Source: Desulfobacterales bacterium | Lineage (GTDB): Bacteria; Desulfobacterota; DSM-4660; Desulfatiglandales; Desulfatiglandaceae | Length of the DNA: 37,187 nucleotides | Reading direction: 5' to 3' | Assembly (NCBI GenBank): GCA_027024445.1 | Contig: JALVSJ010000292.1 | Span: 1-37,187, forward strand | Program-made: the position numbers and the translations under genes | Shown: piece by piece, positions 26,905 to 32,941 of the stretch | How positions within the stretch are numbered: position 1 is the stretch's first letter | Layout of the letters: each line of letters begins with the position of its first letter | The notes under the pieces: model-generated | Databases searched by the model: none | What the model saw: only the letters and a program-made list of their open reading frames with translations | What the model was told of the DNA's origin: nothing

Positions 26905-29900
26905 ATGGCAAAGAACTTGTACGTTGGCGTGGATGCTGGCTCTGTTAGCCTTAATTGCGTGGTGATGGATGAAAAAAGACATCTTGTCTACGAAGCGCCA
27001 TACAAAAGGCATCTGGGAAAGGTGGAAGAAGAGGCCCTGGCGCTGCTGGATGAAATCATAGAGCGCTTTGGTGCTGATTCCATCCGGTCAATCTCATTTA
27101 CTGGCAACCACGGGAAAAAGCTGAGTGAAAATCTGGATGCGTTTTATGAATTTGAAACAATAAGCCAGGTTTTGGGATCCCTGTATGTAAGGCCAGACGT
27201 GAGAACCATTATCAGCATGGGAGGTCAGGACACGGCCCTTTTCCAGATAAGGCATTATGACGGCGGATGGGATCTGGAGCATTTTGCCACTAATGGGCCC
27301 TGCGCTTCCGGAACAGGATCATTTATTGATCAGCAGGCCCAGAGGCTTGCCACTTCAATGTACTCTAGTGACGTTGATCAGTCTCAGCGCAACATAGATG
27401 AAATCCTGAAGGACTTCATTGAACTGGGGCTTAAGAGCGAAAGGGCAGCCAATGTTGCATGCAGGTGCACTGTATTTACCAAGTCAGATATGATTCATTT
27501 GCAAAACAGAGGAGAGCGCCTTGAGGACATAATTCATGGTCTGCACGTGGGAAACGCCAGAAACTACATGAGTACGATAGTAAATAACAGAAACCTGGCC
27601 GAACCCATCATTTTCATAGGAGGCCTTTCAAAGAATCAGCTTCAGGTAAATGCCTTTAAGGAGTACTTTCCGAATCTGGTGGTCCCCCCGTTTAACACTT
27701 CCATAGGTGCAATCGGCGTAGCTTTGCAGGCCATTGAAATGGGACAGGAAGGAGATGTAGACCTTCGAGCGCTCAAAAAATCCGCGAGACTCCAAGACAT
27801 GTCACTGCCCATTGGTAAGCGCCTTGAGCTTAAGAAGACCCATTTCCCTGAGTCAAACGAGGTGGAAAAAAGCTTCATGCCCGAAGGGACCAAGGCGTAC
27901 CTGGGCATAGACATTGGTTCCACAACCACAAAATATGCCCTAATTAATCAAAACGGTGAGATCATACACAAGTGTTACGTTCCTACACAGGGTAAACCCA
28001 TCGAAGTTACGCAAAGGCTCCTACGGCACATAAGAGATGAAGTAGGCGACAGGGTGGAAATTGTTGGTACAGCTACAACCGGGTCGGGCCGCAATGTGGT
28101 TGGAGATTTCCTGAACGTGGACTTGATCATTGATGAAATTACTGCACATGCCCGAGGAGCGGTAGAAATTGATCCCTCTGTGGATACGATATTTGAGATA
28201 GGCGGGCAGGACTCCAAGTATATTTCCATTGCAAACACATACCCTCTTGATTTTGACATGAACAAGGTATGCGCAGCGGGGACAGGTAGCTTTTTGCACG
28301 AACTGGCGAATAAATACGGCATAAATATCGTTGGAGAATTCCAGGAGATTGCCCTGTCCTCTAAGACACCCGTGAAGCTTGCGGAGCGGTGTACTGTCTT
28401 CATGGAATCTGATCTGGTTTCATATCTGCAAAAAGGTGTACCCCAGACGGACCTGATAGCAGGCCTATGCTATGCCATTGTACATAACTACCTGAATCGC
28501 GTTGTGGGAAAGAGAAAGATAGGAAATAAGATTATGTTTCTGGGAGGTCCTTCGCTGAACAAAGGCGTAGTTGCTGCATTTGAGAACGTACTGGGTCGTG
28601 GTCTGATCGTGCCTAAGCATCGAGAGGTACTCGGAGCATATGGCGCTGCTGTTAGCGTGCTTGAGAAGATGAAAACCGAAGGGAGGCGCGAAAGTAATTT
28701 TCGAGGTTTGGAAAACGCGATCAATGACAGGATGGAATACAAGGAGAAAATATGTCACGCAGATCCCACATGCCACAACCAGTGCAAACTGAAGATCTAT
28801 GACTTTGACGGGCGCCGTAGTGTGTGGGGTGGTGAGTGCGGCCGATACGACGTGACACGTGCAAAGGGAAGGAGGAAGGAGAACTATTTCTTATTGCGAC
28901 AAAAGATCTGGGAAAAATATATGGAAGGGGTGTACGAGGAACTGGGTGATAAGCCTATATTAGAAGTAGACGGTCGGCCCACGGTAGGAATGCAAAGGGC
29001 ACTGTATACCCACCAGACCGCAGTGCTATGGGCCCACTTCTTTGATATTTTGGGTTATAGAGTGGTTCTCACACCTCCTACCAATCCCCAGATCGCAAAA
29101 GAAGGCATTGAGACCATGGTGGCTGAGACATGCTTTCCTGTTAAGGTATCCCATGGTCATGTAAAGGCCATCGCAGGGAAAACGCGATTTCTATTCCTGC
29201 CCTCACCAATTACCATGCCAACTCCCACAGAATCAGAAGTTGGATTCTACTGCCCGATGGTCCAGAGTAACTCTTATATGGTTAGAACGGCTTTAGGTCT
29301 TAATCCCAAAGATATCCTGAACCCCACGGTCCATCTTAAATATGACCCTGATACATTGGCATTAGAACTGTCCGAGCAGATATCCAAAAAACTAGGGGTG
29401 GGAAGGAAAAGGATTCGAGATGCGATCCACGGAGCTTTGGAAAAACATAATGCTTTCATAAAGGAACTGCAAAAGATAGGGCAAAAGATAATCCAAGATC
29501 ATCCAGATGATGAACCCATAGTCGTTGTCACAGGGAGGCCGTACAACCTCTATGATGAAAGGGTTAACCTGAGGCTAGGGCAAAACTTGGCGAAGATAGG
29601 AGTCACCGGGCTCCCCATGGATTTTATAGATGTGTCCCAAGTGGATTTGTCCGATTTTCCCAATATGTATTGGGGATTGGGATCGCAGATAATACGGACA
29701 GCAAAGCTGGTGAAAAAGATACCTCAAATGTTTGGGCTCCATCTTACTAACTTCAGTTGTGGGGCTGATTCTTTTCTGGAGCATTTTTACAGACATGTGA
29801 TGAAAGGTAAAGCATATCTCATCCTTGAATTGGATGAGCATAGCGCTGTTGCAGGGGTAATGACAAGGCTCGAGGCCTACAAGAATGTTATTGAAAACAC

Positions 29901-29952
29901 CATGCAGAAAGAAGGATTGATTCGTCAAAAAACAAGAAAGGTGGCTAATTAA
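26905..29952 (+). CDS. Tandem acyl-CoA dehydratase activase (BcrA/BadF/HgdC ASKHA ATPase x2) fused to a 2-hydroxyacyl-CoA dehydratase/DUF2229-like reductase domain
   Basis: ORF 1015 aa. Module 1: YVGVDAGSVSLNCVVMDE, SMGGQDTALF, CASGTGSFIDQQ, CRCTVFTKSDMI. Module 2: YLGIDIGSTTTKYALINQ, EIGGQDSKYISI, CAAGTGSFLHELA, RCTVFMESDLV. C-terminal AETCFPVKVSHGHV, FLPSPITMP, VVTGRPYNLYDERVNLRLGQNLAKIG, NFSCGADSFLEH. Confidence 0.9.
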   Translation: MAKNLYVGVDAGSVSLNCVVMDEKRHLVYEAPYKRHLGKVEEEALALLDEIIERFGADSIRSISFTGNHGKKLSENLDAFYEFETISQVLGSLYVRPDVRTIISMGGQDTALFQIRHYDGGWDLEHFATNGPCASGTGSFIDQQAQRLATSMYSSDVDQSQRNIDEILKDFIELGLKSERAANVACRCTVFTKSDMIHLQNRGERLEDIIHGLHVGNARNYMSTIVNNRNLAEPIIFIGGLSKNQLQVNAFKEYFPNLVVPPFNTSIGAIGVALQAIEMGQEGDVDLRALKKSARLQDMSLPIGKRLELKKTHFPESNEVEKSFMPEGTKAYLGIDIGSTTTKYALINQNGEIIHKCYVPTQGKPIEVTQRLLRHIRDEVGDRVEIVGTATTGSGRNVVGDFLNVDLIIDEITAHARGAVEIDPSVDTIFEIGGQDSKYISIANTYPLDFDMNKVCAAGTGSFLHELANKYGINIVGEFQEIALSSKTPVKLAERCTVFMESDLVSYLQKGVPQTDLIAGLCYAIVHNYLNRVVGKRKIGNKIMFLGGPSLNKGVVAAFENVLGRGLIVPKHREVLGAYGAAVSVLEKMKTEGRRESNFRGLENAINDRMEYKEKICHADPTCHNQCKLKIYDFDGRRSVWGGECGRYDVTRAKGRRKENYFLLRQKIWEKYMEGVYEELGDKPILEVDGRPTVGMQRALYTHQTAVLWAHFFDILGYRVVLTPPTNPQIAKEGIETMVAETCFPVKVSHGHVKAIAGKTRFLFLPSPITMPTPTESEVGFYCPMVQSNSYMVRTALGLNPKDILNPTVHLKYDPDTLALELSEQISKKLGVGRKRIRDAIHGALEKHNAFIKELQKIGQKIIQDHPDDEPIVVVTGRPYNLYDERVNLRLGQNLAKIGVTGLPMDFIDVSQVDLSDFPNMYWGLGSQIIRTAKLVKKIPQMFGLHLTNFSCGADSFLEHFYRHVMKGKAYLILELDEHSAVAGVMTRLEAYKNVIENTMQKEGLIRQKTRKVAN

Positions 29953-31305
29953 ATGGAATCGGCAAAGGTTATCAGCTTTGAGACTCTAACGGAGAACGTA
30001 GGTCGGTTCAACGTAAAGAATAAAACCTTCTTGATCCCACAGATGAATAGGATCGGGGGACATCTTCTGGCTGCTACATTTCGGGGGTTTGGGATCAAAG
30101 CCAAGGTGATGGAGACCTTTAAGGGAATGGATCTCGGCAAGGAATATACATCGGGAAAGGAGTGCTATCCCTGCCAGATCACCACGGGAGATATCCTGTA
30201 TTTCCTTAAAACAGAGAAGGAAAGGCTGGGAGATGCCTTTGATCCCGAAGACTATGTCTATTTTATGCCCGAATCTGATGGGCCCTGTCGTTTTGGAATG
30301 TATAACAAATACCAGCGAATAGTCTTGGACTCTTTTCCCGAGTTCAAGAGGATTCGAATTGGAGCTCTGACCACAAGGGATGGATATTCTCTGGAGGGTC
30401 TCATAGATGAAGAGAGAGTCAGTGATTTGAGAAAGGCTTCGTATTTTTCCGTGGTAGTTGCAGACATACTTGATAGATTGCTGTGGCGGATTCGGCCTTA
30501 TGAAAAAGAGAAAGGAATGGCCGATGAGTTTATTGAAAACTCCATGCATTTAATGGAGGAGGTTTTCGAGGTATATGGCCCGAAAAAGAACTTCGAGAGA
30601 ATCCTGGATAAGCTGGAGGAGGTAATAGAGCAGGGGAAAGAAATCATTGACCCTTCAATCCCTCCAAAACCTCTCATAGGCATTGTTGGTGAAATATATG
30701 TGAGAAGTCACGTGTATGCCAACCAGAACCTCATAAGATTACTTGAAAAGTACGGCGGTGAGGCAGTGAATGCATCCATAGCCGAGTGGATGAACTATAC
30801 AAGTTATGATAGGCTAAGAGAAGCGAAGATAGGGTTGAGATTGCAACTCAAACAGTTGCGCTTGGGCGCTGTTAAAAAATATCTGAAGAAAATGCTGGAT
30901 TTTGGTGGAGATCTTTATTACCAGGAAATCCGCCAGAGGCAGGTCTACAAAAGGGTCAAGAAACTTATCAATATTCCCCACGATCACAAGGTCGGGCATT
31001 TGGAGAAGGTCTTGAAAGAGAAGGATCTGTTTACCTTTGATGTGGGCACTGAAGCATGCCTGAGCATAGCCGGTATTGTAGAATATGCGCGTGAGGGATT
31101 TAACGGTGTGGTAAATGCCTATCCGTTTACATGCATGCCCAGCACTACTACCTCGGCAATTGTGAAGCCGCTAATGGATAAGCTGGGCGTGCCATATCTG
31201 GATACCCCCTATGACTCCAGTTACCAACCAGGTAGAGAGGCTGCCATAAGGACATTTATGTATCAGGCCCATCAGCATTTCAATCGCCACGGTAGAAGGC
31301 ATTGA
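29953..31305 (+). CDS. 2-hydroxyacyl-CoA dehydratase (HgdB/CoA-substrate activase)-like protein
   Basis: ORF 450 aa: TFLIPQMNRIGGHLLAATFRGFGIKAKVM, GKECYPCQITTGDILYFL, DGPCRFGMYNKYQRIVLD, IGIVGEIYVRSHVYANQNLIRLLEKYGGEAVNA; abuts the previous stop codon (taaatg). Confidence 0.87.
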   Translation: MESAKVISFETLTENVGRFNVKNKTFLIPQMNRIGGHLLAATFRGFGIKAKVMETFKGMDLGKEYTSGKECYPCQITTGDILYFLKTEKERLGDAFDPEDYVYFMPESDGPCRFGMYNKYQRIVLDSFPEFKRIRIGALTTRDGYSLEGLIDEERVSDLRKASYFSVVVADILDRLLWRIRPYEKEKGMADEFIENSMHLMEEVFEVYGPKKNFERILDKLEEVIEQGKEIIDPSIPPKPLIGIVGEIYVRSHVYANQNLIRLLEKYGGEAVNASIAEWMNYTSYDRLREAKIGLRLQLKQLRLGAVKKYLKKMLDFGGDLYYQEIRQRQVYKRVKKLINIPHDHKVGHLEKVLKEKDLFTFDVGTEACLSIAGIVEYAREGFNGVVNAYPFTCMPSTTTSAIVKPLMDKLGVPYLDTPYDSSYQPGREAAIRTFMYQAHQHFNRHGRRH

Positions 31306-31459: not shown

Positions 31460-32941
31460 ATGGCAACCAAAATGCTCATAAATGCAGTAGAGGCAGAGGA
31501 AGCGAGGGTGGCCATAGTAAAGGACGGCGTGCTTGAGGATTTCTATATTGAAACACTTGGCGAAGAAGAAAAGGTCGGCAACATCTATAAAGGGATAATC
31601 GAAAAAATGGAGCCAAGTCTGCAGGCCTGTTTTGTTAACATAGGTCTGGAAAAGAACGGTTTTCTTCCCTTTAATGAGATCCATCCTGAGTATTTCACCA
31701 GACCTCAGGCCCTTGATAGGCCCCAACCTATTCAATCCCTTGTCAAGGAGGGCCAGGAGGTCTTGGTTCAGGTGACAAAGGAAATGCCTGGCCGCAAGGG
31801 GCATCATCTTACTACCTATTTGTCAATTGCCAGCAGGTTCCTGGTTCTCACGCCTGGCAGAGAGGGAGGAGGGATATCCAAGAAAATAGAGGATGAAGCA
31901 GAAAGGGCTCGAATAAAAAAGGTTATGAGCCAATTCAAGTTCCCCGAAGGAGTGGGGTATATTGTGAGGACAGCTGCAGAGGGCCAGAGTAAGCGCGAAT
32001 TATCTAAAGACCTCAAGCGCCTCCTCAGAGTATGGGCAGACATTAAAAAGAGGGTGAAAAAAGCACCTCCTCTGACGTTGATCCATCAAGAGCAAGATGT
32101 ATGTCTGCGCGTTCTTCGGGACCATTTTTCGGCTGATATAAGTGAAGTGCTGGTGGATGACAGAGAAACCTATGTTAAGGTCAAGAATTATATGAAGATT
32201 ATCTCTCCCAGATATCAAAGGAGAGTCAAACTGTATAAAGACAACGTCCCTATCTTCGACCGCTTTGATGTAGAACGACAGATTGAAAGCATTTTTAGCA
32301 ATAGAGTGAATTTAAAATCCGGCGGTTACATTACTATTGATCCCACAGAGGCCTTGATCTCCATCGATGTCAATTCAGGCAAAGGGATGTTGGGTAAAGA
32401 CATTGAGACCATGGCCTTTCGCACCAATATCGAAGCAGCTAAGGAGGTAGCTAGGCAGTTAAGGTTACGCGACCTTGGAGGCCTTATTGTAGTAGATTTT
32501 ATAGATATGAAAGACAAAAGACACGTTAGAGAAGTAGAAAAGGTTCTGAGGGAGGAGTTCAAGAAAGATAAGGCCAAGATTGATATGTCAAGGATCTCAA
32601 AATTCGGGCTAGTGGAAATATCACGCCAACGGATAAGGCCCCCGATAGAGTCTCGAAGATACCATGTTTGCCAATATTGTCACGGCAGAGGTCTGGTCCA
32701 ATCAATTGAATCTGCTGCGGTGTCAGTGTTGAGAAGGATATCCATGGGGTTGTCTCGTAAAGGCATAAGCGCGGTGGAAGGACGACTACCAGAAGAAGTG
32801 ACCAACTATCTCCAGAACAAAAAGAGAAAGGAACTATCCGAACTGGAATCACGTTATGGAGTGGAGATAACATTGGTAGCAGATGAGTCCCTTGCTCCAG
32901 GGGAGGCCCAACTTGAGTTTATCAGACAGGAAGCAGCGTGA
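31460..32941 (+). CDS. rng: Rne/Rng family ribonuclease (RNase G-like)
   Basis: ORF 493 aa: VGNIYKGIIEKMEPSLQACFVNIGLEKNGFLPF (S1), GGYITIDPTEALISIDVNSGK, GLIVVDFIDMKDKRHVREVE, CQYCHGRG. Confidence 0.96.
   Translation: MATKMLINAVEAEEARVAIVKDGVLEDFYIETLGEEEKVGNIYKGIIEKMEPSLQACFVNIGLEKNGFLPFNEIHPEYFTRPQALDRPQPIQSLVKEGQEVLVQVTKEMPGRKGHHLTTYLSIASRFLVLTPGREGGGISKKIEDEAERARIKKVMSQFKFPEGVGYIVRTAAEGQSKRELSKDLKRLLRVWADIKKRVKKAPPLTLIHQEQDVCLRVLRDHFSADISEVLVDDRETYVKVKNYMKIISPRYQRRVKLYKDNVPIFDRFDVERQIESIFSNRVNLKSGGYITIDPTEALISIDVNSGKGMLGKDIETMAFRTNIEAAKEVARQLRLRDLGGLIVVDFIDMKDKRHVREVEKVLREEFKKDKAKIDMSRISKFGLVEISRQRIRPPIESRRYHVCQYCHGRGLVQSIESAAVSVLRRISMGLSRKGISAVEGRLPEEVTNYLQNKKRKELSELESRYGVEITLVADESLAPGEAQLEFIRQEAA

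Follow-up and report, generated by a model that had tools for sequence, protein, structure and literature searches.

The window, meaning the whole stretch of DNA that was analysed (37,187 nucleotides), is one complete contig (C292) from a metagenome-assembled genome (MAG) of 3.3 Mb, and its nearest relatives in the sequence collections are Desulfobacterales/Deltaproteobacteria MAGs. Genes at the locus of interest follow the order rny, polA, ORF A, ORF B, RNase E/G and M48-TPR, with the ATG of ORF B immediately after the stop codon of ORF A. The stretch singled out by the first-pass annotation (26905-28690) comprises residues 1-595 of ORF A and contains both activase modules of the protein, while residues 605-1010 were assigned to a DUF2229 part that is homologous to ORF B. 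The features are as follows:

26905..29952, + strand: ORF A, whole (1015 aa; 74 full-length split relatives retrieved)
26905..27834, + strand: activase module 1, aa 1-310 (second stretch of PF01869/TIGR00241; matches to HgdC, HadI, MbdQ and MbdP)
27886..28680, + strand: activase module 2, aa 328-592 (PF01869 8e-62, TIGR00241 281 bits; matches to MbdQ, HadI and HgdC)
28744..28848, + strand: four-cysteine linker (C617, C623, C627 and C645; invariant in 99/99, alignment A1)
28981..29934, + strand: DUF2229 domain, aa 693-1010 (PF09989 9.5e-50; first reductase-like half)
29953..31305, + strand: ORF B, 450 aa, the other reductase-like half (lines up with the C-terminal end of ~1400-aa single chains; fold match to HadBC, DCCP and BzdNO)
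31460..32941, + strand: RNase E/G family gene (TIGR00757 1e-148; conserved downstream neighbour)

The initial claim that a single open reading frame carries two activase modules was borne out by searches with Pfam and NCBIfam models, in which two BcrAD_BadFG/CoA_E_activ stretches and one DUF2229 domain were found in ORF A. PF01869 (E 8e-62, 210 bits against a cut-off of 31.5) and TIGR00241 (281 bits against a cut-off of 125) each match in two stretches above cut-off and, with E-values down to 1e-84, chance is ruled out as the source of the domain matches. The best sequence relatives in the PDB are MbdQ (9gai_D), the activator of 2-hydroxyisocaproyl-CoA dehydratase (4eht), HgdC (1hux), the reductase of the double-cubane cluster protein (DCCP; 7yyl) and MbdP (9gai_C), and the same five were recovered when module 1 was queried alone. 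An AlphaFold model of ORF A was obtained with a pLDDT of 85.3 and a pTM of 0.77, and module 2 was matched to 9gai_D by Foldseek with a TMt of 0.92.

ORF A was aligned with 99 relatives, of which 74 have the split form and 25 are others, including the ~1400-aa form. The sequence motifs quoted in the first-pass annotation (DAGSVSLN, CASGTGSF and CRCTVF in module 1; DIGSTTTK, CAAGTGSF and ERCTVF in module 2) were all found where it had placed them, and the cysteine motifs are indeed intact in both modules: C133 and C188 of module 1 and C456 and C496 of module 2 align with C127 and C166 of HgdC, and are unchanged in 99/99 aligned relatives. The parallel statement concerning nucleotide-binding motifs stands for module 2, in which the canonical ATP residues are retained across the split clade, but not for module 1. 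Based on general knowledge of the fold, from which we take the residues that contact ATP, T13 of HgdC is replaced in module 1 of the split clade by V14, K16 by N17 (72/74) and K109 by A111 (71/74), while D109 is changed to E, N or S in 16/74; conversely, D10, G106, G107, Q108 and the adenosine-loop residues G239 and G240 are retained in all 74 sequences. In module 1 of the fused relatives GGEDxK is mostly present. The extra cysteine that had been noted in module 1 (C186) is a feature of the split clade, where it occurs in 73/74 sequences, but its place is taken by G or S in the majority of the remaining 25. Near the cluster site, module 1 has K193 in 99/99 sequences as against mostly E501 in module 2, and in a tree of the modules each forms a separate clade (support 100/99 for module 1 and 95/96 for module 2). 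Judged from these alignments, asymmetry between the two modules runs through the whole family, and its form depends on the clade; the asymmetry proposed at the outset is real, although it is not new in kind, since heterodimeric activases exist. The cysteines of the linker that joins the activase half to the reductase-like half (C617, C623, C627 and C645), kept in 99/99 aligned chains, are missing in several stand-alone DUF2229 proteins, and may form an electron-entry [4Fe-4S], another Fe-S site or a Zn site.

Homology between the DUF2229 domain and ORF B was apparent when profiles built from diverse alignments were compared (hhalign probability 98.8, E 1e-16), whereas a comparison of profiles built from close relatives only did not detect it. 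DUF2229 has three invariant cysteines (C743, C783 and C952 in 41/41, alignment A3), as does ORF B (C71, C112 and C394 in 40/40), and the two sets align pairwise as C743/C71, C783/C112 and C952/C394; in the split clade C74 and C369 of ORF B are kept in addition, making five. Three cysteines fitting a [4Fe-4S] with an open site are present, then, in both DUF2229 and ORF B, and in BzdO a [4Fe-4S] is held by three cysteines and a water ligand. The AlphaFold model of ORF B (pLDDT 88) gave as its best 11 PDB matches exclusively subunits of 2-hydroxyisocaproyl-CoA dehydratase, DCCP or benzoyl-CoA reductase, with probabilities of 0.99-1.00, TM values of 0.38-0.52 and 3o3m as the top match. At the sequence level no significant PDB relative was found for ORF B (best E 0.04) or for DUF2229 (best E 0.08), and a profile of ORF B built from close relatives returned only chance matches against the PDB. 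Through its homology to ORF B, DUF2229 is predicted to share the acceptor fold. The original reading of a two-module pseudo-dimer is partly supported; it had overlooked that ORF A is more than an activase, and that its C-terminal domain and the adjacent gene provide the half that accepts electrons.

DUF2229 was found in 92/118 genomes of the phylum. Most of the open frames concerned are ~1400 aa long; in the ones inspected, module 1, module 2, DUF2229 and B follow one another along a single chain, with which ORFs A and B are colinear. The second layout is the two-chain split form, as in the window; ORF B adjoins ORF A in almost every locus of sufficient length. A third layout comprises three genes, encoding B, DUF2229 and one activase (L136:5480-8777, L144:6128-9240 and L146:3622-6594); this corresponds to the HgdABC layout, and the single activase would there have to pair with itself. 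The L144 example is followed by a B12-binding radical SAM gene. Matches to DUF2229 occur also in Thermotoga maritima, Lactococcus lactis, Thermus composti and Deinobacterium chartae. SMU_438c of Streptococcus mutans, a protein named as activator-related that may or may not be a fused homologue, is listed with a value of 2.20 in the transcriptome table of a manganese-uptake study (PMC6952196). The architecture of two activase domains plus DUF2229 was described in 2024 (PMC11362221); it is common and already known, and the window holds one member.

The order polA-A-B-rng is repeated in many Desulfobacterales loci. In a survey that covered one phylum, the reductase gene is followed immediately, in the same orientation, by an RNase E/G gene in at least 13 genomes of seven families (all 13 of the close pairs), against ~0.34 expected, and a ~312-aa TYW1-like radical SAM gene adjoins the reductase gene on the same strand in at least 25 genomes of 11 families, against ~0.28 expected; these counts, which are uncorrected for relatedness, are lower bounds, the genomes being drafts and the RNase E/G genes being counted among the matches listed, and the expectations assume random placement in 3 Mb. 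The radical SAM gene is upstream of the reductase in 22 of the 25 genomes (examples are L159:4916-5869, L162:10778-11713, L163:5106-6026, L164:10564-11481 and L167:9376-10311), and its product carries the motifs GPVPSRR and CxxxCxxC; the nearest PDB relatives include, weakly, tRNA 4-demethylwyosine synthase (E 7e-5), and one member has a predicted C-terminal winged helix. Both neighbours accompany fused as well as split forms, and among these cases are G070, G103 and G033, which are closely related to the window. Many genomes have two RNase E/G genes, just one of which is linked to the reductase. The genome to which the window belongs has its radical SAM homologue away from the reductase locus (G000:C305:3557-4342), in a 274-aa frame whose match falls into two segments (model positions 2-188 and 231-306); this may be an internally truncated form. 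Contigs C115 (L157) and C151 (L158) of this genome carry HgdABC-like sets of their own, the latter adjoining an acyl-CoA ligase gene and a thiolase-like gene. As far as we have searched, the operon-like trio of radical SAM, reductase and RNase E/G genes is apparently new.

The homology between DUF2229 and ORF B, together with their cysteines and the fold of ORF B, gives A+B the same set of components, two ATPase modules and two acceptor modules, as a class I benzoyl-CoA reductase (BCR), an enzyme that has been described as two functional dimers, one of which has a bridging [4Fe-4S] (PMC11971306). The reading that we favour, with a probability of roughly 0.7, is that A+B is a two-chain, ATP-driven low-potential reductase of the BCR class I/2-hydroxyacyl-CoA dehydratase (HAD)/double-cubane superfamily, in which modules 1 and 2 share one [4Fe-4S]. 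The modules would pair inside chain A, in the manner of the HgdC or MbdPQ subunits, and the pair would hold one [4Fe-4S] to which each module contributes two cysteines. By analogy with the family, binding and hydrolysis of ATP, probably mainly by module 2, would alter the pseudo-dimer such that one very-low-potential electron is expelled. This electron would pass to a heterodimer formed by ORF B and the DUF2229 domain of ORF A, each of which would hold a [4Fe-4S]-type cluster on the three invariant cysteines that the sequences and fold described above provide, and at which a substrate would be reduced. An intramolecular pseudo-dimer in ORF A is the most economical reading of the sequences. It is favoured by the presence of two ATPase modules per one DUF2229 and one B, by the three-gene layout with its single activase, by the fixed differences between modules, such as K193 in 99/99 against mostly E501, by the clean two-clade module tree, by the four invariant ligand cysteines, two in each module, and by the solved MbdP/MbdQ heterodimer of 3-methylbenzoyl-CoA reductase.

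Single-module activases of the 1hux and 4eht family work as homodimers, and both ligand cysteines are kept in each module of ORF A, from which it might be argued that the modules are not paired within the chain, and that two A chains instead form a true homodimer in which module 1 pairs with module 1' and module 2 with module 2', with two clusters per dimer. We consider this improbable, given that two modules per DUF2229 and B fit the four-subunit layout of BCR, that the differences near the cluster are fixed, and that the single-activase form shows one pair to be needed per reductase dimer. Nearly an even proposition, and one that is compatible with the two-chain reductase, is that module 1 has a structural or regulatory role without ATPase activity, completing the cluster site and the interface. 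The loss in the window's clade of the equivalents of T13, K16 and K109, along with the variability of D109, points in this direction, as does the MbdP subunit of the solved heterodimer, which has GGQT where GGQD is expected. On the other hand, the retention of D10, G106, G107, Q108, G239 and G240 in 74/74 sequences, and of GGEDxK in module 1 of the fused relatives, argues against such a role.

Database names (PF09989, TIGR00241) would make of ORF A an activase only, with DUF2229 as a docking domain that serves to activate another dehydratase in trans, but this is very unlikely in view of the homology and three aligned cysteines of DUF2229 and B, the acceptor-subunit fold of B, and the fact that B travels with A. 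Catabolic reduction of acyl-CoA compounds, whether aromatic or other CoA thioesters, has somewhat more in its favour, since A+B has four modules as in class I BCR and such a role has been proposed for fused homologues in MAGs from a hydrocarbon-degrading culture (PMC11362221). However, no aromatic catabolic gene cluster surrounds A+B in the window, and genes for CoA-ester catabolism are likewise lacking alongside, polA and rng being the flanking genes both there and in relatives; moreover, one or few copies are present in 92/118 genomes, and the separate HgdABC-like sets of the same genome include one beside an acyl-CoA ligase. Linkage to the radical SAM gene and rng also argues against a purely catabolic role, which we regard overall as unlikely. 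The neighbours are the best lead to the function of the reductase, and hint at a cofactor- or RNA-related housekeeping role more than at the breakdown of a single carbon source. That the radical SAM protein, the reductase and RNase E/G constitute one system, which carries out a very-low-potential reduction on RNA or an RNA-linked cofactor, is a more specific and distinctly speculative proposal.

If the latter were true, then RNA or an RNA-linked cofactor would represent a new substrate class for the benzoyl-CoA reductase superfamily. More generally, a ~1400-aa protein that is widespread in anaerobes and annotated as 'activase' is recognised here as a probable complete ATPase plus reductase, and the company that it keeps with radical SAM and RNase E/G genes yields hypotheses that can be tested where the annotation had led nowhere. 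An asymmetric ATPase pair in one chain would, in addition, permit each ATP site to be mutated separately, which homodimeric HgdC does not.

Amongst known systems, A+B resembles class I BCR (BcrABCD, BzdNOPQ, MbdONPQ) in having two different ATPase modules, a putative cluster that bridges them and a pair of acceptor modules homologous to each other, with MbdQ the best match of module 2; it differs in that the BCR components are separate subunits linked to aromatic catabolism, and in that BzdN has a six-cysteine double-cubane cluster. ORF A does not qualify as an equivalog of any BCR ATPase subunit, its scores lying far below the cut-offs (134 bits against 578 for BcrA, 91 against 380 for BzdQ and 80 against 313 for BcrD). 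With HgdC/HadI and HgdAB/HadBC, A+B shares the module fold, the CAxGTG and CTVF cysteines, the ATP motifs (in full in module 2, altered in module 1) and the acceptor fold (3o3m), although HgdC and HadI are stand-alone homodimeric activases and HgdAB and HadBC catalyse a redox-neutral dehydration. DCCP and its reductase similarly combine an ATPase module with the acceptor fold (7yyl, 6eno), but DCCP-R is a single-module reductase and DCCP a homodimer with six cysteines per subunit for an [8Fe-9S] cluster, as against five in ORF B, three of them invariant, and three in DUF2229 plus four in the linker. The MCR activation complex was rejected as an analogue, since its A2 component is of the ABC type, its clusters are Nif-like and it does not belong to this family. 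The same architecture is seen in the fused '2 x YjiL ATPase + DUF2229' protein of Ruminococcus MAGs, which shares the two activase domains, DUF2229 and an adjacent HgdB-like/Hgd-D-like gene, and which its authors had already compared with BcrCBAD (PMC11362221). That system is from another phylum and aromatic degradation was inferred for it, whereas the locus in the window is set apart by its polA and rng context and, in its relatives, by the radical SAM gene.
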